Shown here: in pieces, positions 1 to 15,128 of the stretch
How positions within the stretch are numbered: position 1 is the stretch's first letter
How the letters are laid out: every line of letters starts with the position of its first letter
Source: Rhodocyclales bacterium
Lineage (GTDB): Bacteria; Pseudomonadota; Gammaproteobacteria; Burkholderiales; Rhodocyclaceae
Assembly: GCA_026399475.1 (NCBI GenBank)
Contig: JAPLQY010000076.1
Coordinates: 1 to 64,000, forward strand
Length of the DNA: 64,000 nucleotides
Direction of reading: 5' to 3'
Notes under the pieces: generated by a model
Told to the model about the DNA's origin: nothing
What the model saw: the letters and a program-made list of their open reading frames with translations, nothing else
The model's database searches: none
Program-made: the position numbers and the translations under genes

Positions 1-1543
1 CCAGTTGGTGCACGCCGCCGACCATGCTCATCTTGAAGCCGTAGTAGGGCAGCACCTTGGTGAATTGGGCCTTGCAGATGGCGCAGATGGTGGCCATGAA
101 ATTGACGCCGTCGTGCTGGGCGATCCGGTTAAGGGCTTCCATGCGCGGCAGGGCGCCCTTGACCCGGAGGTCGAGCAGTTCGTCGGTCAGCAGGCCGCCG
201 CCGCCGCCGCAGCAGAAGGTTCTTTCGTGCGTGGTGTCGGGCGACATTTCGACGTAATGGTTGGCGACGGCCTTGATGATGTTGCGCGGAATATCGAACT
301 GGCCGCCGGCGTAATCGCCCATGCGCGAGCCGCGGGCGACGTTGCAGGAATCGTGGAAGGTGACGATGCGGTGATCGTTGGCTTCCTTGTTGAACTTGAG
401 GCGGCCGGCCTGGATCAGGTCCCAGGTCACTTCGCAGATGTGCGAGGGCTGCTTGTAGTTGGGGTCGAGCTGCTTCTGCAACTGGATCGCGAAGGGATCG
501 CTGGCGCCGGCACCGATGCCGGTCAGGGTGTTCCAGAAGGCATAGGCGACGCGCCAGGCATGGCCGCATTCGCCGACCACGATGCGCTTGACGCCGAGTT
601 CGAGCGCCGCTTCGCGCACACGCATGGCGATCTTCTTCATCTGGTCGTAGTTGCCGATGAACATGCCGAAGTTGCCGGCTTCCGAGGCCTTGCTGGACAG
701 CGTCCAGGAAATGCCGGCGGCGTGGAAGACCTTGCCATAGCCGATCAGGCTATCTACGTGCGGTTCGGCGAAGAAGTCGGCGGACGGCGTGACCAGCAGT
801 ACTTCGGCACCCTTGACATCGAGCGGGTACTTGACCGCAGCGCCGGTGTCTTCCAGCACATCCTCTTCGAGCCCTTCCAGCGTGTTTTCCAGCGCCGGGC
901 CGGGCAGGCCGAGGTTGTTGCCGATCTTGTGCACCTTGCCGATGATCTCGTTCACGTACTTGTGACCGACACCGATGCTGTGCATGATTTCCTTGGCCGC
1001 CATGGTGACTTCGGCGGTGTCGATGCCGTAGGGGCAGAACACGGAACAGCGGCGGCATTCGGAACACTGGTTGTAGTAGCGGAACCAGTCGTCGAGCACG
1101 TCCCTGGTCATGTCGCGGGCGCCGACCAGTTTGGGGAACAACTTGCCGGGCAGGGTGTAATAGCGGCGATACACCGAGCGCATCAGATCCTGGCGTGCTA
1201 CCGGCATGTTCTTCGGATTGCCGGTACCGATGAAATAGTGGCACTTGTCGGTGCAGGCGCCGCAATGCACGCAGGCATCCATGTACACCTTGAGCGAGCG
1301 GTACTTGCCGAGCAACTCGCCCATCTTGGCCACGGCCTTCTGCTCCCAGCCATCGACCAGCGTGCCGGGGAAGCCCATGGCCTCGTTGTGCGCGGCGGTG
1401 GCGGCATAGGGGTCGGGATCGATCATCGCGTCCGCGCGCAAGGCGGGGATGGTCGGATACTCGCGGAAGGCAGGGGCTTCGATCTTGACCTTGACGGTCG
1501 GCTTGGCCGCAGCGGCGGCAACGGGTGTGGTTGCGTCAGCCAT
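1..1543 (-). CDS. dsrK: DsrK, iron-sulfur subunit of the DsrMKJOP membrane complex (3' end cut by window)
   Basis: This is the cytoplasmic, HdrD-like catalytic subunit of the DsrMKJOP complex, which in this family exchanges electrons with the DsrC disulfide/trisulfide. I translated it directly from the minus strand. Two cubane Fe-S motifs are visible, CVHCGACTDKC near residues 91-101 and CSECRRCSVFC ending near residue 170. They are followed by the HdrD-type cysteine-rich motifs HDSC, CCGGGGG and CAIC near the C-terminus. About 514 residues are visible, so only the last few dozen residues should be missing. It starts one base after the dsrM stop, consistent with translational coupling. The remaining dsr genes (typically L, J, O, P, N) would lie beyond position 1. 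Confidence 0.95.
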   Translation of the reverse strand, partial: MADATTPVAAAAAKPTVKVKIEAPAFREYPTIPALRADAMIDPDPYAATAAHNEAMGFPGTLVDGWEQKAVAKMGELLGKYRSLKVYMDACVHCGACTDKCHYFIGTGNPKNMPVARQDLMRSVYRRYYTLPGKLFPKLVGARDMTRDVLDDWFRYYNQCSECRRCSVFCPYGIDTAEVTMAAKEIMHSIGVGHKYVNEIIGKVHKIGNNLGLPGPALENTLEGLEEDVLEDTGAAVKYPLDVKGAEVLLVTPSADFFAEPHVDSLIGYGKVFHAAGISWTLSSKASEAGNFGMFIGNYDQMKKIAMRVREAALELGVKRIVVGECGHAWRVAYAFWNTLTGIGAGASDPFAIQLQKQLDPNYKQPSHICEVTWDLIQAGRLKFNKEANDHRIVTFHDSCNVARGSRMGDYAGGQFDIPRNIIKAVANHYVEMSPDTTHERTFCCGGGGGLLTDELLDLRVKGALPRMEALNRIAQHDGVNFMATICAICKAQFTKVLPYYGFKMSMVGGVHQL

Positions 1544-1544
1544 G

Positions 1545-2270
1545 TCAGTTCTTCGCGTCCAGTGGTGCCGCCCAGGGCGCCAGATGGCGCGTCTCACGCG
1601 GGTTGTCGACCTGGTTGCGGGTCGGCGAGAAGAATACGCCGGGGGCATGCAGCAGCTTGCTGACGGGGAAGATGATCATCAGCAACGCCACCATCAGCAG
1701 GTGCAGGTAAAGGCCAGGGTGTGCCGGCAGCGGATTGATCTCGAATGCCATCAGGCCGAGGAAGAAGGTCTTCACGGCAACAATGTCGGTATGCATGACG
1801 AACTTCATCAGCAGGCCGGTGACGGCGATGCCGAGCAACAGGGCCAGCATCAGGTGATCGGAGGGGGTCGAGATGTAGCGAATGCGTTCGACCAGGAAGC
1901 GTCGCGCCCAGAGTCCGGCCAGGCCGGCGGCCATGGCGAAGCCGGCATACATGCCGAAGGGCTGGATGAAGGCAATGATGAAATTGACCGGCTCGGTGAA
2001 GTAGCGCAGATGGCGCAGCAGCACCAGCGCGAGTCCGACATGGAACAGCCAGCCCAGCGCCCAGATCCACAGGTTGGACTTGAACAGGCTTTCAAAGAAC
2101 ACCACCTCGCGGAACATGCGAAACGCCACCCCGCCGGCCGTGGTCGGTGCCGGCGTGGTGGGAATGCTGAGCGGCGCCGGGGTGCGCGTGTAGTCGTAGA
2201 TCTTGTATGCCACGCCGCCCACCAGAATCAGTGTGGCGGCGTAAAACAGGATGGCAAAGAAGAGACTCAT
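1545..2270 (-). CDS. dsrM: DsrM, NarI-like membrane cytochrome subunit
   Basis: A 241-residue integral membrane protein resembling the cytochrome b (NarI-like) subunit that anchors DsrK and exchanges electrons with the quinone pool. It starts MSLFFAILFYAATLILVGG, a first transmembrane helix, and further hydrophobic helices follow, with histidines that could bind heme (for example in WLFHVGLALVLLRHLRY and FVMHTD). It lies between dsrC and dsrK in the usual order and ends one base before the dsrK start. The family assignment is firm from context and sequence; heme ligands were not assigned individually. Confidence 0.93.
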   Translation of the reverse strand: MSLFFAILFYAATLILVGGVAYKIYDYTRTPAPLSIPTTPAPTTAGGVAFRMFREVVFFESLFKSNLWIWALGWLFHVGLALVLLRHLRYFTEPVNFIIAFIQPFGMYAGFAMAAGLAGLWARRFLVERIRYISTPSDHLMLALLLGIAVTGLLMKFVMHTDIVAVKTFFLGLMAFEINPLPAHPGLYLHLLMVALLMIIFPVSKLLHAPGVFFSPTRNQVDNPRETRHLAPWAAPLDAKN

Positions 2271-2315
2271 GGTCGCTCGCTATTGCGGCTTAGGAACAGG
2301 TATTCCGGACCGGAA

Positions 2316-2651
2316 TCAGACGCAGCCGGTGGGCTTGGGCAGTCCGGCGATTTTGCACGCCTGCTTGGCGGGACCGTAGGGGAACAGCTCATAGAGATAC
2401 TGGCTGGTGCCCTTTTCCGCACCAAGCTTCTTGCCGATGGCCTTGGTCAGGACGCGCACGGCCGGGGCGATCTGGAATTCGTTGTAGTAGTCGCGCAGGA
2501 AATTGATCACTTCCCAGTGCTGATCGGACATCTCGACGCTTTCCGTTTGCGCCAGATAGGTGCCGACGTCCTCGTTCCATTCGGCGAGGTTGATCAGATA
2601 GCCTTCTTCGTCTGTTTCGTAGGATTTGCCGCTTACTTCGATGGTAGCCAT
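2316..2651 (-). CDS. dsrC: DsrC, sulfur carrier with both redox cysteines
   Basis: DsrC carries sulfur to and from the DsrAB reductase as a trisulfide between two C-terminal cysteines. The 111-residue protein ends in CKIAGLPKPTGCV, so both conserved residues are present: Cys110 (penultimate) and Cys99, eleven residues upstream. That is the pattern of a true dissimilatory DsrC rather than a TusE-type paralogue. A good ribosome-binding site (AGGAG) precedes the ATG. It follows dsrH by 54 bases and precedes dsrM by 45 bases. A second family member lacking Cys110 is encoded at 7894-8232. Confidence 0.97.
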   Translation of the reverse strand: MATIEVSGKSYETDEEGYLINLAEWNEDVGTYLAQTESVEMSDQHWEVINFLRDYYNEFQIAPAVRVLTKAIGKKLGAEKGTSQYLYELFPYGPAKQACKIAGLPKPTGCV

Positions 2652-2705
2652 GATTGTCTCCTGGGTGATATACGGGGTATGAGTGCTTCGGTTACAGCGA
2701 ATGCA

Positions 2706-3005
2706 TTACAGCCACGATTGGCAGTTCTTGTGTTCTGCGACGAGGTCGACAAAGCCGCCGTAATCCACGGTGGTGACGCCTTCCATGACGCGCTCGTGCA
2801 TGCCGCGCGCTTCGAGGTCCGGCGCGAGTGCATAGACTTTGAAGCGCGAAAGGGCCTCGCGCAATTTGCTTTCCGCCTCATTGCCGCGGGTGGCGGCATA
2901 GACCGCATCCTCGATCAGCAGGATGGCGCCGCCTTCTTGCGCGACGCGCAGGCAGGACTCGAGCGTGGTGCGTTGCAGCGACGATTTATTGACGATGTGC
3001 AGCAT
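2706..3005 (-). CDS. dsrH: DsrH/TusB-like sulfur-relay subunit
   Basis: A 99-residue subunit of the cytoplasmic DsrEFH hexamer, which hands sulfur to DsrC in sulfur-oxidising bacteria. It begins MLHIVNKSSLQRTTLESCLR and ends in NCQSWL; Cys18 and Cys95 are its cysteines. Length and position right after dsrF match the family. DsrEFH is known from sulfur oxidisers and is absent from typical sulfate reducers, so this gene helps set the direction of the pathway. Confidence 0.93.
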   Translation of the reverse strand: MLHIVNKSSLQRTTLESCLRVAQEGGAILLIEDAVYAATRGNEAESKLREALSRFKVYALAPDLEARGMHERVMEGVTTVDYGGFVDLVAEHKNCQSWL

Positions 3006-3020
3006 GTTCTATTTCTCCCT

Positions 3021-3392
3021 TTAGAAGGTCAGGACCACGTCCTGCTCTTCCATGAGCTTGCCCAGTTCGGTGCGCGACATCACTGTGACATCGACCAGCA
3101 GGTCTTCTTCCGTCAGTCCGCGGGCGGCCAGTGCTTCCTCTTCGACGTAGAGCTTCTCGACATCGTAGCCATCGAGGGCGCGGTAAGTGGGCGAGAAATT
3201 CTTGTTCTCGATGCCCTTGGTCTGCTGTCCCTTCTTCAACTGGAACACGCCGTCGTCCATGAAGACCAGGCTGACGTCCTGGTCGAAGGCAGCCGTGATC
3301 AGCACCACTTCCAGGGACTCGAGCGCATAGATGGTGCCGTAGGGAGCCGTGCGATTGACGAACATGAATTTCTTGATGGTGCCTTCGCTCAT
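3021..3392 (-). CDS. dsrF: DsrF/TusC-like sulfur-relay subunit
   Basis: The second subunit of the DsrEFH complex, about 123 residues. I chose the ATG at 3392 (MSEGTIKKFMFVNRTAPYG), which begins one base after the dsrE stop; an upstream TTG-type start four codons earlier would overlap dsrE and looks unnecessary. The sequence has the Rossmann-like DsrE/F fold signature (VNRTAPYGTIYALESLEVVL). It contains no cysteine, consistent with DsrE supplying the acceptor cysteine. Confidence 0.93.
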   Translation of the reverse strand: MSEGTIKKFMFVNRTAPYGTIYALESLEVVLITAAFDQDVSLVFMDDGVFQLKKGQQTKGIENKNFSPTYRALDGYDVEKLYVEEEALAARGLTEEDLLVDVTVMSRTELGKLMEEQDVVLTF

Positions 3393-3393
3393 G

Positions 3394-3753
3394 TCAGTCT
3401 CCAAACGTTACGAGGCGGTCGGCCTCGATACCGGCTTCGACCAGCTGGCCGAGTCCCGAGATGCGGAACCCCGGGGCCAGATTCTCGTCGCGGATGCCGC
3501 GCCGCAGGGCGGCGGCAACACAGACCACGAGGTCGAGCTTGTGCTCTGCGGCAAGCTTGGACCAGCGGGTGACTATGTTGCGGTCATCCAGCGGCGGCTC
3601 GGTCAGGGACGAAGCGTTGTTCACGCCATCGTTATAGAAGAACACGCGACGAATCTCGTGGCCCTTCTCCAGCGCTGCCCGGCAGAACAGGTAAGCCGAG
3701 TCGCTCGCCTGATGCTGGTAGGGGCCTTCGTTGATGGTAACTGCAATTAGCAT
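3394..3753 (-). CDS. dsrE: DsrE, sulfur-accepting subunit of DsrEFH
   Basis: A 119-residue protein starting MLIAVTINEGPYQHQASDS. The sulfur-binding cysteine is at position 78 in LVVCVAAALRRG, the same position number I know for the active-site cysteine of Allochromatium vinosum DsrE. It should receive persulfide sulfur from upstream carriers such as TusA and pass it to DsrC. A longer open frame extends upstream through dsrB, but the ATG at 3753 gives the family length and sits 23 bases after dsrB. Confidence 0.95.
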   Translation of the reverse strand: MLIAVTINEGPYQHQASDSAYLFCRAALEKGHEIRRVFFYNDGVNNASSLTEPPLDDRNIVTRWSKLAAEHKLDLVVCVAAALRRGIRDENLAPGFRISGLGQLVEAGIEADRLVTFGD

Positions 3754-3776
3754 GAGCTGATTTTCCTGGAATGCGC

Positions 3777-4865
3777 TCAGAAGCGGATGTGGGTCGAGGC
3801 GTTGAGATTGGCACGCGAACCACGCCAGTCGTCGATCAGGTACTTGGTGAAGGGCAAGCCGGTCTTTTCGAAGAAACGCGGCCAGCCGATGCGGTCGATC
3901 CAGTCGGCGAGGCGTTCCCAGGGACGGGCATCGGCCTTGTAAGTGCGCAGGATGTTGCCGACTACGGCATTGACTTCGGGCCAGCGCGGGGCATTGTTGG
4001 GCAGGCCGGAGGCAACCATCTTCATGAAGGTGGGCTTGCCGCGCGCGTTGGAGTTCTTGCCGCCGACCCAGATCGCCAGCTTGGAATATTCCGGATCGTT
4101 GATCTGCATCGGCGGGCACGGGGGGTAGCAGGCGCCGCAGCAGATGCACTTCTTTTCGTCGACTTCGAGCGAGGGCTTGCCGTTGACAAGTGCAGGGCGA
4201 ATCGCGGCTACCGGGCAGCGGGCGACCACGGTGGGGCGCTCGCAAACGTTGGCAACCATGTCGTGATTGATCTTGGGCGGCTTGGTGTGCTGGATGATGA
4301 CCGCAATGTCGGCCTGGCCGCCGCAATTGATTTCGCAGCAGGAGGTGGACAGATGCACGCGGTTGGGCATCTCCTCGGTCCTGAACTCGTTGTAGAGCTC
4401 GTCCATCATCGACTTGACCACGCCCGAGGCGTCGGTGCCGGGGATGTCGCAGTGCAGCCAGCCCTGGGTGTGGGACACCATCGATACCGAATTGCCGGTG
4501 CCGCCGACGGGGAAGCCGGATTTCTCAAGTTCCGCGATCATCGGATCGACCTTGGACTGGTCGGCAACCATGAATTCGATGTTGGAGCGAATCGTGAAAC
4601 GAACAAAGCCTTCGGCAAACTTGTCGGCGATGTCGCACAGCTTGCGGATGGTCCACACGTCCATCTGGCGCTGGGTGCCGGCGCGTACCGTCCAGATTTG
4701 ATCGCCGGTGTGGGACACGTGGTGCAGTACGCCGGGACGGGGCCGGTCATGATATTTCCAGTTGCCGTAGTTCTTCAGCATGGTCGGATGCAGGTGCGGC
4801 TTGTTGTCCGGCACGCCGCATTCGTTGGCTTTGCGCAGCGGGGCGGCGGGGGTAGGTGCGTTCAT
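3777..4865 (-). CDS. dsrB: DsrB, dissimilatory sulfite reductase beta subunit
   Basis: The beta subunit of the siroheme-containing sulfite reductase; in oxidisers the enzyme works in the direction of DsrC-bound sulfur to sulfite. The 362-residue protein (ATG at 4865, eight bases after AGGAG) carries a ferredoxin cluster motif with cysteines 240, 243, 246 and 250 (CICCGACYPPC) and a CCEINC segment at 176-181 near the siroheme site. A TTG two codons upstream is too close to the ribosome-binding site to be the start. It follows dsrA by 11 bases. Confidence 0.97.
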   Translation of the reverse strand: MNAPTPAAPLRKANECGVPDNKPHLHPTMLKNYGNWKYHDRPRPGVLHHVSHTGDQIWTVRAGTQRQMDVWTIRKLCDIADKFAEGFVRFTIRSNIEFMVADQSKVDPMIAELEKSGFPVGGTGNSVSMVSHTQGWLHCDIPGTDASGVVKSMMDELYNEFRTEEMPNRVHLSTSCCEINCGGQADIAVIIQHTKPPKINHDMVANVCERPTVVARCPVAAIRPALVNGKPSLEVDEKKCICCGACYPPCPPMQINDPEYSKLAIWVGGKNSNARGKPTFMKMVASGLPNNAPRWPEVNAVVGNILRTYKADARPWERLADWIDRIGWPRFFEKTGLPFTKYLIDDWRGSRANLNASTHIRF

Positions 4866-4876
4866 GCTCAATCTCC

Positions 4877-6172
4877 TCAGGCAGCGGCTTTTTTGGCGTT
4901 GATGCGGGCGACTTCGTCGTCCCAGCCAATGGTATTGACATAGGGATTCATGCGCGGCGTTGAAACCATGTTGGCGTCGATTTCAACCTCGATGCCTTCC
5001 AGGAAATTGACCAGGCCGATGCGCTCGATCATTTCGCCGGTGCGCTCGTGTTCCAGCGCGTTTTCAGCGAAGAAGTCGATGATCTTCTGGCCCAGTTCGA
5101 CCAGCTTCTCGTAGTCCTCGTCCGTCTTTAGCGACATGAAGGGGATCACCACGGTACCCATCAGGTCACCGATCTTCAGTGTGCGCTTGCCGCCGACCAG
5201 GATCGTCGCGCCCTTGTCCGCGCCGGTCGCCAGCGCGCCGGTCATGACGTTGATGCAGTGCATGCAGCGCACGCAATCCTTGTTGTCGATTTCCAGGGCC
5301 TGGCTGTCGTTCAGGGCGACGCTGCTGATGTTGTCGGTCTTCCTGACGTCCTTGATTTCCTTGATCTGGATCGCCTTGGTCGGGCAGCGGGCGACGACGT
5401 CGTTGACCAGCTCGTTCATGCCGTGCTTGGCGAACCATTTCTTGGCCAGGGCCTCGTCGGTGCGGATGTTGTCACGCCAGGTGCCAATCACGGCCAGGTC
5501 CGAACGCTGGATCGAGTTCATGCAGTCGTTGGGGCAGCCGGAAAACTTGAACTTGAACTTGTAGGGCAGGGCCGGGCGGTGGATATCGTCGAGGAAGGTA
5601 TTGAGCACTTCGCGGTGCGCCTTGGCCTCGTCGTAGCAGGACTGCTCGCAGCGCGATGCGCCGACGCAGGACATCGAGGTGCGCACCGACGGACCGGCGC
5701 CACCCATGTCGAAGCCCATGTCGTTGAGCGCGTCAAAGGCGGGTTGCACGTTTTCCGTGGTAGCGCCCTGGAACATGATGTCGCCCGACTGGCCGTGGAA
5801 GGCAATCAGGCCGGAGCCGTGCTTTTCCCAGATGTCGCAGAACTGGCGCAGTGTCGATGTGTTGTAATGCATTCCTGGCGGCGGCATGATGCGCAAGGTA
5901 TGGAATTCGGCTGCATCCTTGAACACCGGTTGGCCGGTATCGTCCTTGATTTCGCTGAAGCGCGGAATAACCCCGCCGCCGTAGCCGCGGACGCCGACCG
6001 TACCACCCTTCCAGTAACCCTTGCGGGTCTGGTAGGAGTGCTCGAGGTGGCCGAGAATGTCGACCATGTAATCCTTGTCCTTGGCCAGTCGCTTGAGGCC
6101 GGTGACAAAACTGGGCCAGGGGCCGCTTTCCAGTTGATCCAGATTCGGTGTTGGGTGCATGGGCTTGGCCAT
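4877..6172 (-). CDS. dsrA: DsrA, dissimilatory sulfite reductase alpha subunit
   Basis: The alpha subunit, 431 residues, and the first gene of the operon. The siroheme-[4Fe-4S] motif is visible as Cys169-x5-Cys175 (SCVGASRC) and Cys213-x3-Cys217 (GCPNDC). A ferredoxin-type motif follows at Cys300, Cys303 and Cys306. The ATG at 6172 is preceded by GAGGAG. Together with DsrB, EFH, C and MK it forms a reverse-type sulfur oxidation system. A phylogenetic test against reductive and oxidative DsrA would be decisive; the gene order already argues for oxidation. Confidence 0.97.
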   Translation of the reverse strand: MAKPMHPTPNLDQLESGPWPSFVTGLKRLAKDKDYMVDILGHLEHSYQTRKGYWKGGTVGVRGYGGGVIPRFSEIKDDTGQPVFKDAAEFHTLRIMPPPGMHYNTSTLRQFCDIWEKHGSGLIAFHGQSGDIMFQGATTENVQPAFDALNDMGFDMGGAGPSVRTSMSCVGASRCEQSCYDEAKAHREVLNTFLDDIHRPALPYKFKFKFSGCPNDCMNSIQRSDLAVIGTWRDNIRTDEALAKKWFAKHGMNELVNDVVARCPTKAIQIKEIKDVRKTDNISSVALNDSQALEIDNKDCVRCMHCINVMTGALATGADKGATILVGGKRTLKIGDLMGTVVIPFMSLKTDEDYEKLVELGQKIIDFFAENALEHERTGEMIERIGLVNFLEGIEVEIDANMVSTPRMNPYVNTIGWDDEVARINAKKAAA

Positions 6173-6361
6173 GGTCTGTCTCCTCGTTGTCGGGGGGGTA
6201 ACTCGATAATGGAATCATAGGGTTGTGTGCGGTGCACAAACCATACTCCCGGAAGGTAATTGGACCTACCCGAAAGGGTTATATGCTTGCACTCCCATCC
6301 GGTGATGGTCCTATGGCAGTCGCTGGTGCCATAGTTCGCCCCCATAGAGATTGGATACCCA
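6173..6361. promoter_or_regulatory. Divergent control region between dsrA and the Cas6-like/TusA cluster
   Basis: The 189 bases between two divergent gene sets must hold both promoters. Two structures are visible. One is an inverted repeat with arms TTGTG (6223-6227) and CACAA (6235-6239), a possible operator for dsr. The other is a hairpin ACCC-GAAA-GGGT (6268-6279) with a GNRA-type loop. I found no convincing pair of -35 and -10 boxes on either strand, so the promoters may need an activator. The role of each element is inferred. Confidence 0.4.
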
Positions 6362-6601
6362 TTGGACTCCGTTACCTCGCTCGACAAATTTCGCGTACCG
6401 ATCGGCAATCAGGAGATCGAACTGCAGCAGTTCGTCTTCGAGGCCGGCGGCATGCCCTTGCTGCGCACGCGCATCCGCGAGGCCAGCCGCTTTACCATTT
6501 TTGACGTCGATCCTGTCACCGCGGCGCGTTGGGGCAAGGTGCTGTGCGCCTGGGCTGCGGCGCAGCCGGGCATGAATGACACGGAAGGAGATGCGGCTTG
6601 A
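6362..6601 (+). CDS. Small conserved-looking protein of unknown function
   Basis: A 79-residue protein read from a TTG (MDSVTSLDKFRVPIGNQEIE...). No ATG lies upstream in frame before the coding signal fades, so the exact start is uncertain. It has no cysteine, no signal peptide and no membrane helix. The sequence looks like a small alpha/beta protein (ELQQFVFEAGGMPLLRTRIRE). Its stop overlaps the start of the Cas6-like gene by four bases (TTGA), so the two are probably co-translated. I do not recognise the family with confidence. Confidence 0.6.
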   Translation: MDSVTSLDKFRVPIGNQEIELQQFVFEAGGMPLLRTRIREASRFTIFDVDPVTAARWGKVLCAWAAAQPGMNDTEGDAA

Positions 6602-7224
6602 GCTACTCGCCGGATGAGGCTTCAAGGGTAATGGTCGACGTGGTATTTTCGCTCGAAGAGGCGACCCTCAACGACGACCATGCCTGCGCCCTGTCTCGGG
6701 CGGTGCGGCGTGCCTTGCCCTGGTTCGATGAAGAGCCCGAAGCCGGCATCCTGCCGCTGTCGGGGTTGGCGCGCGGCAATGGCGTGCGTTTTGTCGGGCG
6801 CCGCAGCCGTCTTGCCTTGCGCCTGCCGATCCACCGCAGCCCCAGCGCCGACTCCCTGGTTGGTGTCCAGCTCGATCTGGATGGCGTGGTCCTGAAGGTG
6901 GGCGCGAGCAGTGTGCGCCCGCTGTATCCGGCGCGTGGTGTCGTCTATTCCCATTTGGTCAACGTCGGCGCCGAAGACGAAATCGAGTTTCTCGAGCGTT
7001 GCGCTTCCCTGCTGGCAGGGCGCGGCCTGAAGCCGCAGTTGATTACCGGCAAGGCGCATGAGTTGCGCACCGCCGACGGTCTGGTGCGCGGCTTCAGCCT
7101 GATGTTGCATGGTCTGGGTGCCGCCGATTCCCTGGCTGCGCAAGAAGCCGGTCTGGGCGAGCATCGCGCGCTCGGATGCGGCATTTTCATTCCCCATAAA
7201 TCGGTCGTCGCTGTCGGCGCCTGA
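6598..7224 (+). CDS. Cas6/Cmx6-like (RAMP-fold) protein in a sulfur-gene cluster
   Basis: A 208-residue protein with a TTG start, supported by AGGAG eight bases upstream and a four-base overlap with the preceding gene. The C-terminus (residues about 184-208) reads AGLGEHRALGCGIFIPHK, which matches the glycine-rich loop and end of the Cas6/Cmx6 family of CRISPR RNA endonucleases. The preceding segment (RGFSLMLHGL) also fits. No repeat array or other cas gene exists within 57 kb on the right or 6 kb on the left. The neighbours are dsr, TusA and DsrC genes, so its job is probably not CRISPR RNA processing. The similarity is from memory; a profile search should confirm it. Confidence 0.7.
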   Translation: MSYSPDEASRVMVDVVFSLEEATLNDDHACALSRAVRRALPWFDEEPEAGILPLSGLARGNGVRFVGRRSRLALRLPIHRSPSADSLVGVQLDLDGVVLKVGASSVRPLYPARGVVYSHLVNVGAEDEIEFLERCASLLAGRGLKPQLITGKAHELRTADGLVRGFSLMLHGLGAADSLAAQEAGLGEHRALGCGIFIPHKSVVAVGA

Positions 7225-7252
7225 CCAACACAACTGAACGAGGAGATGCCTC

Positions 7253-7735
7253 ATGTCTGAAGTCGCCACCGTAACGCTCGATGTAAGCGGCCTGCCCTGC
7301 CCGGCGCCGCTACTGGGAGCCAAGAAGCTTATCGACGACCTGCAACCGGGTCAGACCCTGCGCCTGATTTCGGATTGTCCGGGTACCGCGGACGATCTGT
7401 TCTCCTGGGCCAAAGTCACCGGAAATGTCGTGCTCGGCAGCCAGAAACAGCCCGATGGCAAGACTGCTTACCTGATCCAGCGAGCGGGCGGCGCGAACGC
7501 CACGCCGATCGCCCACGTGACGCTGGACATGCGCGGCGTGTCCTGCCCCGGCCCCATCGTGCAAGCCAAGAAGCTGCTGGATGGCATGAAGGCGGGTGAG
7601 GTGCTGCAACTGGTAAGCGACTGCCCCGGATCGGCCGACGACATTACCTCCTGGGCCAAGGCGGGCGCGGCCGAGCTGGTGTTTTCACATGAGTCCGGAC
7701 GCGGCGTACACGAGTTCTATTTGAAGAAGGCCTGA
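7253..7735 (+). CDS. Tandem TusA-domain sulfur carrier protein
   Basis: A 160-residue protein made of two TusA-like domains. Each has the sulfur-binding CPxP motif (Cys16 in LPCPAPL, Cys98 in VSCPGPI) and a second cysteine in a matching SDCPG segment (Cys42 and Cys124). TusA carries persulfide sulfur between enzymes; a single-domain TusA commonly supplies DsrEFH in sulfur oxidisers. Fusion of two complete domains suggests intramolecular or paired sulfur handover. It follows the Cas6-like gene by 28 bases with a clear GAGGAG ribosome-binding site. Confidence 0.9.
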   Translation: MSEVATVTLDVSGLPCPAPLLGAKKLIDDLQPGQTLRLISDCPGTADDLFSWAKVTGNVVLGSQKQPDGKTAYLIQRAGGANATPIAHVTLDMRGVSCPGPIVQAKKLLDGMKAGEVLQLVSDCPGSADDITSWAKAGAAELVFSHESGRGVHEFYLKKA

Positions 7736-7786
7736 CGGCCTGCTTCAAATCGATTTTTGATTGACCCATCCCCCAGCCCCGTTCCA

Positions 7787-7810
7787 CAGCCGGCACTGCA
7801 TTGCCGGCTG
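7787..7810. repeat. Perfect 9-bp inverted repeat after the TusA-TusA gene
   Basis: CAGCCGGCA (7787-7795) and TGCCGGCTG (7802-7810) form a perfect stem with a six-base loop. It lies about 50 bases after the TusA-TusA stop. There is no T-run after it, so a rho-independent terminator is not certain; RNA stabilisation or partial termination are alternatives. Confidence 0.6.
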
Positions 7811-7853
7811 GCTACGGTGGCGCAACGCAGTGCGTCGAGAAACCCCACCTTCG

Positions 7854-7873
7854 CCCCCTTGGGAAGGGGTGAC
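7854..7873. repeat. Probable degenerate copy of the G-rich palindromic element
   Basis: CCCCTT (7855-7860) and AAGGGG (7864-7869) pair around a three-base loop and are followed by TGAC. The preceding stretch (around 7765) reads CCCATCCCCCAGCCCC. Both flanks resemble those of the palindromes at 8294-8311 and 58696-58716, so this may be a decayed or variant member of the same genomic repeat. Confidence 0.45.
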
Positions 7874-7893
7874 TAATCAGAGAGGAGAATCCC

Positions 7894-8232
7894 ATGAGCT
7901 ACACCATCAACGGAGTTGAAAAGGAATTCGATGACTACGGCTACCTGCTGGAGCCGGATTTTAGCGAGGAAGCGGTGCACGTCATCGCCGCTGCCTGCGG
8001 CATCACCCTGACCGATCAGCACTGGAAGGTGGTCAACTTCCTGCGCAACAAGTTCAAGGAAGACGGCCACACGCCGAACATGCGCAACCTGATCAAAGGC
8101 CTGCAGGAAGAAGGCGACATGCCCGAGGCCGACAGCGCGTTGCTGTTCGAATTGTTCCCTGACGGCGGTGCCGCCAAGGAAGGCTGCAAAGTCGGAGGCC
8201 TGCCGCAGCCGAAAGGCAAAGGCGGCTATTAG
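7894..8232 (+). CDS. DsrC-family paralogue lacking the penultimate cysteine
   Basis: A 112-residue DsrC/TusE-family protein (LTDQHWKVVNFLRNKF and LFELFPDGGAAKEGCKVGGLPQP are typical). In the C-terminal arm, Cys98 matches Cys99 of the true DsrC at 2316-2651. The position of the penultimate cysteine is replaced by a GKGGY tail. The retained cysteine is therefore the upstream one, the opposite of what I recall for single-cysteine TusE. It cannot form the intramolecular DsrC trisulfide, so a regulatory or carrier role with a partner thiol is more likely. AGAGGAG precedes the ATG. Confidence 0.92.
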   Translation: MSYTINGVEKEFDDYGYLLEPDFSEEAVHVIAAACGITLTDQHWKVVNFLRNKFKEDGHTPNMRNLIKGLQEEGDMPEADSALLFELFPDGGAAKEGCKVGGLPQPKGKGGY

Positions 8233-8293
8233 CCACCTTTGCCTTTCGGCGTTGCCCTTCGGGCAAAGCCAATTAATCGCCCCTACCCCCCGG

Positions 8294-8311
8294 CCCCCGC
8301 CCGGGCGGGGG
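8294..8311. repeat. 18-bp perfect GC palindrome (REP-like element)
   Basis: CCCCCGCCC followed directly by its reverse complement GGGCGGGGG. The flanks (CCTACCCCCCGG before, GTGAC after) match those of the copy at 58696-58716 in opposite orientation. A separate small hairpin, TTGCCC-TTC-GGGCAA (8252-8266), lies just upstream in the same spacer. Confidence 0.75.
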
Positions 8312-8349
8312 GTGACCAGTCAGCTCGCTGCGCTCGAATAAGGTGAACG

Positions 8350-8955
8350 ATGGCCATTAGAATCCGCTCCAGTTTCCACGCCGGCGGCAAGCCGCGCTCG
8401 ATGGCGGAACTCGCCAGCGTCATTGCAATCCTGGGCTGGAAGCTGGCGATCGACTCGATCAAGCGCATGCGCGAGGCCGAGTACGATATCGATCTGGGCA
8501 GTGCCTATTTCGACTTCGTCTGCGAATTCATGGTGTTTCTAGCCCAGGCGGCTGATCGCGTTGCCTACCGGGAACTGGCGCCGGAGCAGCGCAGCGAGTT
8601 CACTACTGCACTGGCACAGCGCATGGCTGCCGCGATCGAGGACAATCGCGACATGCTGCTGTTCGACGTTGCGCCGGGCAAGTGCCAGCGGCACTTCCTC
8701 GATCTGTTCAACCGGCGTGGTGCGGAATATGCGGATCACGGCTATACCGAGGATGGTCCCGACTTCGGTTTTCGCCGCTGCTTTGCCGCTTGCATGAAAG
8801 AAGTCCTGCCGGAGAAGGATCGCCTGTGGGCCGTCGACCAGGTGATGGAAATCGAATCTCCCGAGGCCATCAAGGCCCTGGAGAAAACGCTGGCGGGGCT
8901 GTTTCATCCGGAGGCAAAAAGCCGGCGTTCGCAGCACGGTGTAGTGGAGCACTAG
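8350..8955 (+). CDS. Unknown, mostly helical cytoplasmic protein
   Basis: A 201-residue protein I cannot assign to a family. It looks mainly alpha-helical, with no signal peptide or membrane segment. Four cysteines are visible: one in DFVCEF, one in GKCQRHF and two in FRRCFAACMKE. The gene sits between the DsrC paralogue and a dioxygenase, on the same strand, with AAGG before the ATG and only four bases before the next gene. Co-transcription with the sulfur-relay genes is likely, so a role in sulfur metabolism or its regulation is a reasonable guess only. Confidence 0.7.
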   Translation: MAIRIRSSFHAGGKPRSMAELASVIAILGWKLAIDSIKRMREAEYDIDLGSAYFDFVCEFMVFLAQAADRVAYRELAPEQRSEFTTALAQRMAAAIEDNRDMLLFDVAPGKCQRHFLDLFNRRGAEYADHGYTEDGPDFGFRRCFAACMKEVLPEKDRLWAVDQVMEIESPEAIKALEKTLAGLFHPEAKSRRSQHGVVEH

Positions 8956-8959
8956 AGTC

Positions 8960-9862
8960 ATGCGCGGCCCCTTCGATCTCAATGACCTTGCCAGCTATCG
9001 CCAATGGCGCGAGCACAAGCTCGACAGCGCACCACGCCGCATCGAGGACATTCTGGTGCCTCTCGACGACCCGCGCGCGCTGACGGCAAGGGAGCTCGCC
9101 GCCCTGCTGGAACGCTGCGCCACTGCCAACATGGCCATCTACACCAGCAACACGGTTGGCGCCGAGGACAAGGAAATTCCGCGTCGGCTGGGCGCCCAGC
9201 TTGGCCTGCAGCACCTCGACAGCCACTGGCTGACCGACGACGACGCAATTTCGCCGATCTCGGTGCGTGGCGCGGAAGAACGCGGCGAGCGCAAGGAATT
9301 CATTCCCTACACAGACAAGCCGATCAGATGGCACACCGACGGCTACTACAACGTGCCGCAGCGAACGGTGCGCGGCCTTATCCTGCATTGCGTGCAAAGT
9401 GCGGCCGCCGGCGGTGACAACCAGCTGCTCGACCACGAGATCGCCTACATCCTGCTGCGCGACGAGAATCCCGACCACATCCGCGCCTTGTCACAGGCCG
9501 ATGCCATGACCATCCCGCCGCGCAGCGACGAGAATGGCGTCGCCCGCGCCGCCCAGCCGGGGCCGGTGTTCTCGATCGATGGCGAGGGCTTCCTGCACAT
9601 GCGTTACACCGCGCGCACCATCAGCATCGAATGGCGCAGCGATGCCGCCACGCAGGCGGCGGTCGCGGCATTGACCCGGATTCTCGCCGCACCTGTGCCC
9701 TGGACCTTGCACGGACGCCTGGAGCCGGGCATGGGGCTGGTGTGCAACAACGTGCTGCACGATCGCTCCGGCTTCACCGAGACGCCGCAACGGCGTCGCC
9801 TTCTCTACCGGGCGCGCTATCACGAGAGGGTTGCCGCCTTGCCGGCGACAGTTTCAGGCTGA
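8960..9862 (+). CDS. TauD/TfdA-type Fe(II)/2-oxoglutarate dioxygenase
   Basis: A 300-residue protein with the facial triad of Fe(II)/2-oxoglutarate oxygenases: His125-x-Asp127 (WHTDGYYN) and distal His267 (NNVLHDRSGF). An arginine-rich stretch near residues 276-281 could bind the 2-oxoglutarate carboxylate. TauD relatives release sulfite from organosulfonates, which would fit the sulfur context, but the substrate cannot be read from sequence. It starts four bases after the preceding gene and probably ends the cluster that begins at 6362. Confidence 0.8.
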   Translation: MRGPFDLNDLASYRQWREHKLDSAPRRIEDILVPLDDPRALTARELAALLERCATANMAIYTSNTVGAEDKEIPRRLGAQLGLQHLDSHWLTDDDAISPISVRGAEERGERKEFIPYTDKPIRWHTDGYYNVPQRTVRGLILHCVQSAAAGGDNQLLDHEIAYILLRDENPDHIRALSQADAMTIPPRSDENGVARAAQPGPVFSIDGEGFLHMRYTARTISIEWRSDAATQAAVAALTRILAAPVPWTLHGRLEPGMGLVCNNVLHDRSGFTETPQRRRLLYRARYHERVAALPATVSG

Positions 9863-9902
9863 ATCGGTCAGTATAATCGGCGGCTCTGATGAGGTCGTCG
9901 AA

Positions 9903-10772
9903 TTGAGCGCACTGACTCCTGAACTTGAACGCAAACTGGGCACGGCAGTCGAGCGCATGCCGGCGTTTCCGCGCAGCGTGCAAAAGATTCTCGAACTCAC
10001 GCGCAACATCAATTGCCTGCCCAAGGACGTGGTCGCCGTGATCGAAAAGGATCCGGTGATGACCATGAAGATTCTGAAGGTCATTAATTCGGCATACTAC
10101 AGCCTGCCTTCCAGGATCACCTCGGTCAGCCAGTCGGTGGTCTATCTCGGCATCAATACCATCAAGAACCTGTCGATAGGTTTCGCCGCCGTGGGCATGC
10201 TGCCGCGCATGAACGCCGCGGGTTTCGATGTTCAGCGCTATCTGCTGCATTCCCTGGTGGTAGCCGGCGCCGCCCGCCAGTTGGCGACCCAGTTTGCCAA
10301 GGGCGAAGTCGATCCCGGTGACTGCTACATCGCGGGTCTGCTGCACGATTTCGGCAAGGTGGTGTTCGCCCAGTTTCTGGCGGCGGAGTTTCGCGATGCG
10401 CTGATCCATTCAGTCGAGCATTCGGTGCCCCTGCACGAGGCCGAAAAAGCCGAGATCGGTGTCGATCACGGACTGGTAGGCGCCCTTCTGGCCAAGCGCT
10501 GGGCGTTTTCCGAGCATTTGATCGACTGCATCCGCGATCATCACAATCCCCTGGCCGAACCGTCGGCCATGATGGATTGCCTGCGCGCGGCGGATCAGCT
10601 GGTACGCTTCCGTGAAATCGGCGACAGCGGCAATCCCTGGCGCGCAACGGAGGCGCCGGCGGCTCCGCAGCGCTTCGGCGACGACCTTGAGGAGATAGCG
10701 GCGAAACTGGGTTCGCTGAACAGAATTGTCGAAGATGCCATGATGTTTGCCCAGTTTGCCAAAGATAGATGA
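9903..10772 (+). CDS. HDOD-domain signalling protein
   Basis: A 289-residue protein consisting of an HDOD domain, a non-catalytic HD relative used in bacterial signalling. The core is visible in VIEKDPVMTMKILKVINSAYY and IAGLLHDFGKVV. I chose the TTG at 9903, eight bases after GAGG; the frame continues upstream only by overlapping the previous gene. A TATAAT box (9872-9877) sits just upstream but lacks a clear -35. The partner pathway is unknown. Confidence 0.82.
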   Translation: MSALTPELERKLGTAVERMPAFPRSVQKILELTRNINCLPKDVVAVIEKDPVMTMKILKVINSAYYSLPSRITSVSQSVVYLGINTIKNLSIGFAAVGMLPRMNAAGFDVQRYLLHSLVVAGAARQLATQFAKGEVDPGDCYIAGLLHDFGKVVFAQFLAAEFRDALIHSVEHSVPLHEAEKAEIGVDHGLVGALLAKRWAFSEHLIDCIRDHHNPLAEPSAMMDCLRAADQLVRFREIGDSGNPWRATEAPAAPQRFGDDLEEIAAKLGSLNRIVEDAMMFAQFAKDR

Positions 10773-10782
10773 GCGAGAATTC

Positions 10783-11679
10783 ATGAAAGTGCGTTTCTGG
10801 GGCGTGCGTGGTTCGATTCCTTCGCCGGGCCCCAACACCTTCCGCTATGGCGGCAACACGACCTGCATCGAAGTGCGCAGCGACGACAACTCACTCATCA
10901 TTCTCGATGCCGGTACCGGAATATTTCCGCTGGCGCAGGAGCTGCTGAAGCAACTGCCGGTGCAGGCCAATGTTTTCATGACCCACACGCATTGGGATCA
11001 CATCCAGGGCTTGCCGTTCTTTACCCCGCTTTATATTCCAGGCAATTCGGTGCGCATTCACGGCGGCTATGACGTAATTGCCGGACGCGGCATCGACCAC
11101 ATCATGGACGTGCAATTGCAGTACAGCTATTTTCCTGTGCGTGAAGCGGAGATGCGGGCGAACATCGACTACGCGACACTGACCATCGGCGAGCCGGTAC
11201 GCGTGGGTGATGCGACGGTCACGCCCCACTTGCTCAATCACCCGGTGGTCAATTTCGGTTACCGCATTGATTGCAACGGCAAGTCGGTATTTTTTACCGG
11301 CGACCACGAGCCCTGGTCCAATATGTACTCCCCGGAGGATGAGGGCTACGAAGAGTTTCAGCAGATGGTCGAGGTGCAGCAAGGGCAACTCGACAAGGCC
11401 CTGACCGGGCTGGATGTGCTGATCGCCGACAGTTCCTACACGGCCGCCGAATACTCGACCAAGATTGGCTGGGGGCATGGAACGCTGGAGGGCAACATCG
11501 CCTGGGCGCGCAGGCTCGGGGTGAAGAAACTGGTTTGTACTCACCACGAACCGACGCGCTCGGATGATGATCTGGAGCGCGCCTTTGCAAGCGCGCTTGC
11601 GGCGGCGGGTAATGCGCCGGGAGGCTCGGGCACGCCCGAGATTCTTCTCTCCCGCGAGGGGCTGGAACTGGTGCTGTAG
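10783..11679 (+). CDS. MBL-fold metallohydrolase
   Basis: A 298-residue metallo-beta-lactamase-fold hydrolase. The metal-binding motif HTHWDHIQG is near residues 68-76. Further ligands are visible in NHPVVNFGY and FTGDHEPW. The start is the ATG giving MKVRFWGVRGSIPSPG, a typical beginning for this subfamily; the region upstream belongs to the HDOD gene. It starts ten bases after the HDOD stop, so the two may act together in signalling. The substrate is unknown; cyclic nucleotide or phosphodiester hydrolysis is a possibility for this subfamily. Confidence 0.85.
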   Translation: MKVRFWGVRGSIPSPGPNTFRYGGNTTCIEVRSDDNSLIILDAGTGIFPLAQELLKQLPVQANVFMTHTHWDHIQGLPFFTPLYIPGNSVRIHGGYDVIAGRGIDHIMDVQLQYSYFPVREAEMRANIDYATLTIGEPVRVGDATVTPHLLNHPVVNFGYRIDCNGKSVFFTGDHEPWSNMYSPEDEGYEEFQQMVEVQQGQLDKALTGLDVLIADSSYTAAEYSTKIGWGHGTLEGNIAWARRLGVKKLVCTHHEPTRSDDDLERAFASALAAAGNAPGGSGTPEILLSREGLELVL

Positions 11680-11707
11680 CTTGTCAGTGGTGACGCGGCC
11701 GGCGCGG

Positions 11708-13030
11708 TCAGCCTCGCGCGGCAGCCAACAGGTCTTCAATGCGAGCCAGCTTCTCGCGCGGGCGTCCCTGCCCCGCGGCCACCTCCGCTGCATTGATTTT
11801 CTGCCAGCCGGCGAAGTCGACCGGCCGCACGCCGTGTTCGGCGAACAAGGAGTCGATCAGCGCGCCTCCTGGCTTGCCGCCTGTTTGATGAATGGCAAGA
11901 TCGGCCAGGATCAGATCGGCGACCGCCAGGGAGTCGGCCCGGTTGGCTGGCACCACGCCCTGCGGACCGCGCTTGCACCAGCCCACTGTATAGACGCCGG
12001 CTTCGACGCGACCCTGGTCATTGGCAACAATGCCGCGCACCTCGTCGAAGGGCAGGCCGGAGAAGGGCGTGCTGCGATAGCCGATGGCTGAAATGATGGT
12101 GTCGGCCGGGATGGTGAAGGTTTCGCCGCCGGGGATCGCCCGGCCGTGTTCGATGCGGGTCTTTTCGAGTACGAGTTCGCGCGCGCGGCCTTCGCCCAGA
12201 ATGGCCACCGGCGCCGCATGGAACATGAAGTGGATACGCACGGGGCGGTTGTGCTGCTCTTCGTGCGCGGCGTAGGTCCGCAGCACCTCGAGATTCTTCT
12301 CTGCCAGTTTTCTCTGTTCTTCCGGCAGACCCTCGGGCAGGATTTGCGGCAATTGGGCCGGGTCTACCTGGATTGCCACGCGCGAGAGCTCGCCAAATTC
12401 GGCGAGTTCGGCGGTGGTGAAGCTCGCCTCCGCCGGACCGCGGCGACCGATCAGCCAGATGTCTTCGATGCGGGCGGCTTCGAACGCGGTGCGGGCGTGC
12501 GCGCACAAATCCGAACTCGCCAGTTCGTCGGGTGTCTTGCCCAGCAGTCGGGCAATGTCGAGTGCCACATTGCCGTTGCCGATGATGGCGAGCGACTTTC
12601 CGTCGAGCTTCGGCTCAAGTTCGCGACCATCGGGAATGCCGTTGTACCAGCCGACGAATTGCCCCGAGCCATACACGCCGTCCAGCGTCTCGCCGGGAAT
12701 GCCGAGGCGGCGATCTTCGAGCGCCCCGATAGTGATGATCAGCACGTCGTAGGCGGCCTTGAGCTCCTCATAGGAGAGGTCGCGACCGATGGCGATGTTG
12801 CCAAGAAAGCGCACGCCGTCCTTGCCCAGCGTGCGTTCGAATTGCCGCGCAATGTTCTTGGTGCCCTGATGGTCGGGCGCGACGCCGCCGCGCACCAGGC
12901 CGAAAGGGGTTGGCAGGCGGTCGAAAATGTCGATGCGGGCGCCGGGCAGCTTGCGCCCCAGGGCATCGGCCACATAGCAACCCGAGGGACCGGCACCGAC
13001 AATTCCGATGTGGAGCTCGGCCGGGTTCAT
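11708..13030 (-). CDS. Ferredoxin-NADP+ reductase, adrenodoxin reductase type
   Basis: A 440-residue flavoprotein resembling FprA/adrenodoxin reductase. It has an N-terminal FAD motif (GIVGAGPSGCYVADAL), the segment PFGLVRGGVAPDH, a second nucleotide-binding motif (IIGNGNVALDIARLL) and the terminal GWCKRGPQGVVPANRADS. It moves electrons between NADPH and ferredoxin. Its ATG overlaps the stop of the PaaX-like regulator by four bases, so the two form one operon. It may feed the diiron oxygenase encoded divergently at 14318. Confidence 0.9.
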   Translation of the reverse strand: MNPAELHIGIVGAGPSGCYVADALGRKLPGARIDIFDRLPTPFGLVRGGVAPDHQGTKNIARQFERTLGKDGVRFLGNIAIGRDLSYEELKAAYDVLIITIGALEDRRLGIPGETLDGVYGSGQFVGWYNGIPDGRELEPKLDGKSLAIIGNGNVALDIARLLGKTPDELASSDLCAHARTAFEAARIEDIWLIGRRGPAEASFTTAELAEFGELSRVAIQVDPAQLPQILPEGLPEEQRKLAEKNLEVLRTYAAHEEQHNRPVRIHFMFHAAPVAILGEGRARELVLEKTRIEHGRAIPGGETFTIPADTIISAIGYRSTPFSGLPFDEVRGIVANDQGRVEAGVYTVGWCKRGPQGVVPANRADSLAVADLILADLAIHQTGGKPGGALIDSLFAEHGVRPVDFAGWQKINAAEVAAGQGRPREKLARIEDLLAAARG

Positions 13031-13977
13031 GTCGCGTCCTTGGTGGCGTCGACCATCGAGTCGCGGAAGCGCAGCTGAAAATAGGGCTCAGCCTCGGGGA
13101 GCCGCCCATCGGCGGTTTCCAGGACGTTGGTCAGGTGGTGCTCGGCCTGCTGGCGGGTCAGCATGTACAACTCGCTGCAGATCTGGCGGGCGATATCGCC
13201 CGGCCAGTCGTTGGGCAGCAACTGTTTGGGCAACTGCGGATCGCGCAACTGAACGCGACGGAATTCGTGGATCAGCAGGGTGCGCACGCAGAAGGCCTGC
13301 TCCGGGTCGAGTTCGCGGGCGGCCTTGATTGCGCGCGCCACGGGGCGGAAGCAGTCGCTGAACCGTTTGTAGTCCTCGGCGATGGCATCGAGATTCCAGC
13401 ATTCCCGCACCAGTTCCTGCAGGGGACGGCTGGAGAGGGCGCCCAGCGTGCGGCCCTGTATCACTACTACTTTGTCGTGAGTGCCGGTGCCCTGCAGGAT
13501 GTCGAGCACTGACTCGTGGTTGGCGTAGGGGTGTGCCAACACGCCCGGCGCGATGACGCCAAAGCCCTCCCACATCAGTTCCCGGCGCAGGGCATCGCGC
13601 TGCGCCGGAGACAGTATGCTGCCGCCGGTGATTACTACTTGCCAGTCGCCGTCCCATTGCTGGCGCGGATCATCGTAGATGCGCCGGTAGGCGTGTTCGA
13701 ATCGTCGGCGGCCGGTGGCGGTAAGGCTGTAGTAGCTCTTGCGCCCGATCTGTTCCGAGACCAGCCATTTTTCCCTGGAGAGACGGAACACGCTGGTTCG
13801 CACCATGCGCGGGTTCAGCCCCAGCGCCTCGACCAGCTTGATGAAGCTGCCAAGCCATACGGTGCCGCCGTGCGGAGCAATGGCATCGCCATAAATGGTG
13901 ATGATCAGCGAGTTGGCACGCAAGGTGTGCGCGGCGAGAAACGCGTCCAGCCACTGCTGGATGAAACGGCTTTTCAT
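13027..13977 (-). CDS. PaaX-family transcriptional regulator
   Basis: A 316-residue regulator with the N-terminal winged-helix of PaaX (SLIITIYGDAIAPHGGTVWLGSFIKL, split here by residues about 24-50) and the PaaX central and C-terminal domains. PaaX proteins usually repress phenylacetate genes and are released by an aryl-CoA. I chose the ATG at 13977; a TTG eleven codons upstream is less likely. It is divergent from the PaaA-like oxygenase, and a matching split operator lies in the intergenic region. Confidence 0.9.
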   Translation of the reverse strand: MKSRFIQQWLDAFLAAHTLRANSLIITIYGDAIAPHGGTVWLGSFIKLVEALGLNPRMVRTSVFRLSREKWLVSEQIGRKSYYSLTATGRRRFEHAYRRIYDDPRQQWDGDWQVVITGGSILSPAQRDALRRELMWEGFGVIAPGVLAHPYANHESVLDILQGTGTHDKVVVIQGRTLGALSSRPLQELVRECWNLDAIAEDYKRFSDCFRPVARAIKAARELDPEQAFCVRTLLIHEFRRVQLRDPQLPKQLLPNDWPGDIARQICSELYMLTRQQAEHHLTNVLETADGRLPEAEPYFQLRFRDSMVDATKDAT

Positions 13978-14160
13978 GCTCGGAACGCGCTCCCTCGATA
14001 GAGGCTTCAAATGATACCACTGCCACCGTGGATATGTAACACGTTTTCCAAATGCGTGGCTGGTCCGCTATACCAGCGAAGCGAGCATGCGTTGCAATGG
14101 ATAATAAAATCAATATAAAACAATGTCTAGCAACTTATTTGTTTAGATATGAAAAATAAT

Positions 14161-14189
14161 TTGACAGTCATTAAATGATACACTATTAT
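14161..14189 (+). promoter_or_regulatory. Sigma-70 promoter of the PaaA-like oxygenase gene
   Basis: A consensus -35 box TTGACA (14161-14166), a 17-base spacer and TATTAT (14184-14189, one mismatch to the -10 consensus). Transcription would start near 14196, leaving a leader of roughly 120 bases before the ATG at 14318. It is the best promoter visible in the window. Confidence 0.85.
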
Positions 14190-14215: not shown

Positions 14216-14231
14216 CGATTACTCATAATAT

Positions 14232-14245: not shown

Positions 14246-14317
14246 TTGCAATCATTTTGAGCGAATCTGCGGGATCATCCGTCATTTGTTTGCGCTGGCG
14301 CCATCTGGAGATCTGAA

Positions 14318-15124: not shown

Positions 15125-15128
15125 TTCC

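Follow-up and report, generated by a model that had tools for sequence, protein, structure and literature searches.

The window analysed here is the whole stretch of 64,000 nucleotides at the start of contig JAPLQY010000076.1, from a Rhodocyclales bacterium (assembly GCA_026399475.1). On its forward strand, at 6598–7224, lies an open reading frame that begins with TTG, ends in GLGEHRALGCGIFIPHKSVVAVGA and encodes a 208-residue protein of the Cas6 family, whose members are usually taken as a sign of a CRISPR (clustered regularly interspaced short palindromic repeats) system. This Cas6-like gene is followed on the same strand by genes for a tandem TusA protein, a DsrC paralogue, a helical protein and a TauD-type dioxygenase, while dsrA and other dsr genes are divergent from it. 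The protein is a true Cas6-family member by sequence and fold, but its context, presumed active site and charge are not those of a CRISPR Cas6. On balance, we lean towards the view that a Cas6-fold protein has left CRISPR, become fixed in the reverse-Dsr locus, and now serves there as a non-cleaving binding or regulatory part.

Identity and Fold of the Cas6-Like Protein

The initial annotation had recognised a Cas6/Cmx6-like protein from its glycine-rich loop, and this is borne out by the exact reading frame, by the loop itself and by three sets of models. The Pfam Cas6 family PF09559 matches over its full length (4.9e-49, profile positions 1–191 of 191), the NCBIfam model TIGR02807 (cas6_cmx6) scores 124.3 bits against a curated cut-off of 98.85, and six PADLOC Cas6 models also match. 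The predicted structure has the tandem ferredoxin-like (RAMP) fold and a C-terminal glycine-rich loop (residues 185–201) that carries GxG and GCGxF. The structural comparison proposed alongside the profile search likewise agrees with the first call, as the protein has the same fold as Cas6. Its closest solved structure is the Cas6 of a type I-B CRISPR-associated transposon Cascade (PDB 8fcj chain B; template modelling score of the model 0.86, root-mean-square deviation 1.9–2.0, 25–27% identity), and profile comparison with the same chain gives 5.6e-32.

The full-length match, the fold and the two loop motifs are shared with Cas6/Cmx6 of type I-MYXAN (TIGR02807/PF09559). Unlike that protein, however, the window protein has dsr rather than cas neighbours, carries no histidine at alignment column 44, and has a near-neutral charge. 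The dsr-linked clade to which it belongs also has near-invariant residues of its own and lies on a separate side of the family tree.

Linkage to dsrA across Genomes

Within the window, dsrA (4877–6172, reverse strand; TIGR02064, 4.8e-155) is followed by dsrB (3777–4871, reverse strand), which was named by position and a weak match to the DsrA model. The matches to dsrA, to a protein with two TusA domains and to a DsrC-family protein confirm the sulfur-related neighbourhood, without adjacent cas genes, that had been described from the sequence.

The generality of this arrangement is apparent in 110 loci from relatives, comprising 80 kept of 201 relatives' loci and 30 from whole genomes, with some contigs shared between the two sets and 94 distinct Cas6-like sequences in all. 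A dsrA gene, scored by TIGR02064, which does not separate oxidative and reductive types, is seen in 109 of these loci (79 of the 80 contig-derived loci alone) and is always divergent from the Cas6-like gene. In the sole remaining locus (L067), the contig stops short, 571 bases upstream of the Cas6-like match. The other neighbours recur to varying degrees: a DsrC paralogue in 108 loci, DUF6967 beside the Cas6-like gene in 104, the helical protein in 98 (it is also seen at certain gammaproteobacterial loci), TauD in 65, many loci being too short to reach it, and tandem TusA in 51, mostly of the Sulfuritalea type. Longer loci from betaproteobacterial genomes all have a divergent dsrA (19/19), and DUF6967 is present in 18 of the 19. 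The usual gammaproteobacterial order is TauD upstream, then the Cas6-like gene and the DsrC paralogue, and this set is divergent from dsrA in 16 of 20 loci of 14 kb.

The same linkage holds at the level of gene content. Among 150 relatives, the Cas6-like protein occurs in 49, dsrA in 51, and both in 48. The lone carrier without a dsrA match (L002) has a dsrA fragment at a contig end. Three dsrA-positive relatives (G009, G014 and G033) have no Cas6-like protein; in G009, a DsrC ending KGGY runs off the contig end at the expected site of the gene, and in G014, only dsrB is visible, at a contig start. A sample of 369 genomes from the class contains 118 with the Cas6-like family, 119 with dsrA, and 111 with both. 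A phylum-wide draw of 398 genomes contained five PF09559 carriers, each with dsrA beside the gene. Viral contigs searched for the dsr-linked family gave 36 candidate stretches, none of which was confirmed. The survey of gene neighbours that had been called for thus finds the linkage to be common among dsrA-bearing beta- and gammaproteobacteria, including genomes in which cas1 was not found. The earlier suggestion that a Cas6 fold was recruited to sulfur metabolism thus has strong support, since the association with dsrA is independent of CRISPR and occurs in most of the sampled dsrA-bearing genomes of both groups.

Relationship to CRISPR Systems

The initial annotation described the cluster as having no CRISPR, which is right for the neighbourhood and wrong for the assembly. 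A Pfam scan of nine window proteins from the first ~14 kb found no Cas protein over the cut-off besides the Cas6-like protein itself; an HDOD protein (9831–10772) gave sub-cut-off matches to Cas3 HD models, as any HD domain would. A search of the whole window for close direct repeats (at least 20 bases long, at most 120 apart) found a single pair and no array. The pair, at 60905–61014, consists of two repeats of 52 bases that are 85% alike and 58 bases apart. Elsewhere in the assembly, a type I-E locus on contig C42 encodes Cas1, a CT1975/CasC-type protein and its own Cas6e (PF08798, TIGR01907). Its array (G000:C42:67001–86000, equal to L121; from about L121:11806) has 81 counted copies at 61-base spacing, with one step of 160 bases. 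The assembly is listed as 9.08% contaminated, so C42 could belong to another organism.

This locus raises the question of whether the Cas6-like protein is an ordinary CRISPR Cas6 working in trans with the CRISPR system of its genome. It had been recognised from the start that a CRISPR operon elsewhere, clearly served by this gene, would undo the interpretation; an operon does exist, but it is of type I-E and has its own Cas6e. The gene is neither encoded with cas genes nor in the service of an array that lacks another Cas6. A role in trans would agree with the TIGR02807 equivalog annotation, with the presence of the I-E locus and array, and with a slight excess of cas1 in carriers, which counts against a departure from CRISPR: of the relatives, 28 of the 49 carriers have a cas1 match, compared with 38 of the 101 non-carriers (p 0.035), and the figures outside the genus are 14 of 24 and 38 of 95 (p 0.11), both by Fisher tests that ignore kinship. 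However, no cas1 match was found in 21 of the 49 carriers among relatives, nor in 14 of 22 carriers hand-picked for completeness and small size, where cas1 was the sole CRISPR marker searched. These 14 include eight single-contig genomes and five genomes of 1.0–1.1 Mb, the latter five probably reduced symbiont genomes by their size. The presumed catalytic histidine is also absent from the protein. The Cas6-like gene does not follow CRISPR, and action in trans is rejected as extremely improbable, since the I-E locus has its own Cas6e and carriers without cas1 exist.

TIGR02807, although an equivalog model, gives a higher score to a dsr-linked Thiobacillus protein (220.9 bits) than to a plasmid protein linked to CRISPR (206.1 bits), and the corresponding NCBI label, ‘type I-MYXAN CRISPR-associated protein’, has been put on a sulfur-operon protein. 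Consequently, automatic annotation probably overestimates the number of cas6 genes in sulfur bacteria.

Presumed Active Site, Conserved Residues and Charge

The dsr-linked proteins were compared with CRISPR-type relatives in an alignment of 156 dsr-linked proteins, eight Cmx6 proteins encoded on cyanobacterial plasmids, and, taken without regard to gene context, 11 relatives from viral contigs. Annotated cas neighbours lie beside seven of the eight plasmid proteins. The eighth, a Cmx6-type Cas6 on a Gloeobacter plasmid (L118, 9974–12172), has no annotated cas neighbour, lies beside hypothetical genes and a gene of the phosphoadenosine phosphosulfate reductase family, and possibly represents an unusual CRISPR type.

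At column 44, 8fcj chain B, which is part of a Cascade complex, has a histidine (in the stretch PPLHE), whereas the window protein, with no cas neighbours, has an aspartate (D44). The window protein thus lacks the N-terminal-domain histidine expected of a Cas6 that processes CRISPR RNA (crRNA). Histidine occupies this column in none of the 156 dsr-linked proteins, but in five of the seven plasmid Cmx6 proteins that cover it (four of six with cas neighbours) and in five of the 11 viral-contig relatives. Other positions have become characteristic of the dsr-linked group: W42, R69, E128, H200 and K201 are near-invariant in it (149–155 of 156) but occur seldom or never in the other sequences (0–2 of 15–19). 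Charge separates the groups as well. The median isoelectric point (pI) is 6.78 in betaproteobacterial and 6.98 in gammaproteobacterial dsr-linked proteins, versus 9.48 and 9.12 in the plasmid and viral-contig groups. The core of the window protein has a pI of 6.71, so that, judged by whole-protein charge, it does not have a basic RNA-binding character.

Together, these features make it likely that the dsr-linked Cas6-like proteins have lost RNA cleavage. This is graded as likely rather than proven because a crenarchaeal Cas6 without the catalytic histidine is still active, according to one report (PMC3652601), which tells against the loss. There, Sulfolobus solfataricus Sso1437, which lacks the canonical histidine as the window protein does, generates crRNA, with several residues contributing to catalysis; the window protein is instead linked to sulfur genes. 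By analogy, the dsr-linked proteins could be Cas6-type RNases that cut a cellular RNA with a rebuilt active site, involving for example H28 or the clade-specific pair of H200 and K201. Of the 156 proteins, 120 retain H28, and H200 and K201 are near-invariant, clade-specific and located beside the glycine-rich loop. However, N, Y or S can take the place of H28 in the betaproteobacterial group, the charge is near-neutral, and neither the leader structure nor the Rfam search of window 1–20000 described below provided a candidate substrate. Retained RNase activity is therefore regarded as improbable.

The Divergent Leader and RNA Binding

The dsrA gene and the Cas6-like operon are separated by a divergent leader of 189 bases (6173–6361) that is well conserved within the genus and contains inverted repeats. 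It includes an almost invariant dyad, TGTGCGGTGCACA, and an inverted repeat, CTATGGCA/TGCCATAG, as candidate operator sites.

A non-cleaving Cas6-fold protein might regulate dsr transcripts or its own operon by binding RNA, for instance by holding a hairpin in this leader. Such a role would be consistent with the conservation of the leader, with the retention of the fold and the glycine-rich loop, and with the basic residues R75, R69 and K201, which are kept in 156, 155 and 153 of the 156 dsr-linked proteins. On the other hand, RNAalifold on 26 leaders from the genus found structure no better than in column shuffles (z of 0.29 on the strand of the operon and −1.71 on that of dsrA), Rfam gave no match at gathering level in window 1–20000, and the net positive charge of the comparison proteins has been lost. 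An RNA-binding regulator is accordingly an unlikely explanation, though one with some merit. The analysis does not support the proposal in the initial annotation that the protein might bind or process an RNA, given the absence of the histidine from all 156 proteins, the loss of basic charge and the lack of a conserved RNA structure in the leader.

The Adjoining DsrC Paralogue

The DsrC paralogue in the window (7894–8232, forward strand) matches the DsrC-family profile and ends GKGGY. It therefore lacks the penultimate cysteine (CysA) of the C-terminal arm by which DsrC carries sulfur. The same is true elsewhere: in 110 of 119 loci, a paralogue was found beside the Cas6-like gene, and all 110 end KGGY or KAGY and are thus without the terminal cysteine. 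Canonical DsrC proteins in the same loci end GCI or GCV (94/94). The CysB-equivalent cysteine has also been lost in most of the listed paralogue tails. In total, 113 tails were counted, and the three left out of the 110 belong to a second DsrC-like frame. This further frame ends RTKGEH and stands beside the KGGY paralogue in L048, L049 and L138. The paralogue lies downstream of the Cas6-like gene in 42 of 49 loci in the set used for the gammaproteobacterial order, a count that missed L171, whose paralogue was seen in the tail count, and in which several loci represent one place taken twice. In one further genome (G734), the KGGY DsrC stands at a contig start. DsrC-family proteins without the terminal cysteine are presumably those named ‘RspA’, a name that was not confirmed in the literature searched.

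The combination of TusA and DsrC/TusE-family proteins in the window could also indicate a part in tRNA thiolation, in which the Cas6-like protein would position tRNA for a sulfur relay of the TusA/DsrC(TusE) type. However, the penultimate cysteine is missing from all 110 paralogues, tandem TusA is present in only 51 of the 110 loci from relatives, and the Cas6-like family tracks dsrA, while almost every one of these genomes, carrier or non-carrier, would be expected to thiolate tRNA. Such a function is very improbable.

Evolution of the dsr-Linked Clade

A tree of 89 rows was built from 31 of 111 betaproteobacterial sequences, all 45 gammaproteobacterial sequences, seven of the eight plasmid Cmx6 proteins (one truncated row was dropped), and six of the 11 viral relatives (those left out were near-copies and one odd row). 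Plasmid and viral sequences fall on one side of a single branch, with a Shimodaira–Hasegawa-like approximate likelihood ratio test value of 99. Across 101 loci, distances between Cas6-like proteins correlate with those of dsrA (r 0.777) and dsrB (0.727); the corresponding value for dsrA versus dsrB is 0.902. The ratio of nonsynonymous to synonymous substitution rates (dN/dS) of the Cas6-like gene has a median of 0.177 (range 0.094–0.277) in 55 pairs from 11 loci of the genus. The distance correlations and the low dN/dS fit long co-inheritance with dsr under purifying selection. The idea that the gene is a decaying leftover is rejected on the dN/dS of 0.177.

A Putative Binding or Regulatory Pair

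Two proteins encoded side by side, each without its known active residue, suggest that the Cas6-like protein and the KGGY DsrC paralogue form a binding or regulatory pair. The inference drawn here is that the Cas6-like protein has stopped cutting RNA and acts instead as a subunit with a binding or regulatory function. It would most likely pair with the DsrC paralogue and, where present, with DUF6967. The paralogue would be unable to carry sulfur at a terminal cysteine, and the pair, as a sensor or adaptor, may govern how the divergently transcribed dsrAB pathway is expressed or assembled. The glycine-rich loop, together with R69, R75, E128, H200 and K201, could then form a new ligand or partner site. 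Binding of Allochromatium vinosum DsrC to DNA upstream of dsr has been reported (PMC5944118), in agreement with a regulatory function of the DsrC fold.

A bolder formulation, put forward tentatively, is that an ex-CRISPR Cas6 without its RNase site is a core, overlooked reverse-Dsr component of beta- and gammaproteobacteria, even in genomes of 1 Mb, and forms a two-protein sensor or regulator with a cysteine-less DsrC. If so, reverse-Dsr oxidation in Thiobacillus, Sulfuritalea and many gammaproteobacterial lineages would have a further component. It would also clearly illustrate how a protein of CRISPR RNA processing can come to serve metabolism, an RNA-defence protein having been turned into a metabolic control part.

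A number of observations weigh against a non-cleaving partner fixed in the reverse-Dsr locus. The class sample includes seven carriers without a dsrA match and eight dsrA genomes without the Cas6-like protein, although 11 of these 15 assemblies have at least 200 contigs, and three of its 118 carriers (G854, G867 and G762) have one in-frame stop within the match. No dsrA is nearby in four of the 20 gammaproteobacterial loci of 14 kb, and in two single-contig genomes of 1.4–1.5 Mb (G636 and G843), the Cas6-like gene is away from dsr, with a KGGY DsrC ~8 kb off. The pairing is likewise imperfect. In nine of the 119 loci, no KGGY paralogue was detected by script, although L134 turned out to have one next to the gene (L218) and L128 has one ~10 kb away; conversely, G608 and G730 have a KGGY DsrC without an adjacent Cas6-like gene. 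The window paralogue also keeps one arm cysteine, C98, the CysB equivalent. As for the active site, the column-44 histidine is also missing in six of the 11 viral-contig relatives and two of the seven plasmid Cmx6 proteins, and the catalytic nature of this column is presumed from the alignment with 8fcj chain B and its place in the fold. Finally, the invariant basic residues R69, R75 and K201 leave nucleic-acid binding possible.

No report of a Cas6–dsr linkage, nor of a DsrC paralogue paired with a Cas6-fold protein, was found in the open-access literature searched, parts of which were available, and the linkage may hence still have been published elsewhere. The available parts of PMC3652601, PMC9638904, PMC13293266, PMC3368242, PMC10952691, PMC5728499, PMC5944118 and PMC8889020 contain no such linkage.

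Other Genes of the Locus

Upstream of the Cas6-like gene, a DUF6967 protein of 79 residues (PF22295; 6362–6601, forward strand) overlaps the TTG start by four bases at its 3′ end. Downstream, the tandem TusA protein (7253–7735, forward strand) consists of two PF01206 stretches, each with a CPxP motif (CPAP and CPGP in translation), and the TauD/TfdA-type dioxygenase (PF02668; 8960–9862, forward strand) is a frequent neighbour. On the reverse strand, a canonical dsrC with the tail KPTGCV (2316–2651), which we take as such from its sequence, lies within a region (1545–3404) that presumably includes dsrM, dsrH and dsrF, judging by position.

Variants of the neighbourhood were seen in individual genomes. 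In the 1.4 Mb genome G636 (L173), the Cas6-like gene is away from dsr and divergent from a gene that we take to be RNase III, followed by what are presumably era-like and recO-like genes. In the Thiobacillus denitrificans locus L102, no tandem TusA was found, and the gene after the DsrC paralogue (L102:9029–9919) presumably encodes a rhodanese.

The conserved helical protein (8350–8955, forward strand) has no Pfam match, and a fold search with its model against solved structures gave nothing at E 0.001 (best 0.29). The model is alpha-helical, with a predicted local distance difference test score of 86.3, and the invariant residues in its alignment include R4, F54, D69, R70, D157, W160, D163 and Q164.
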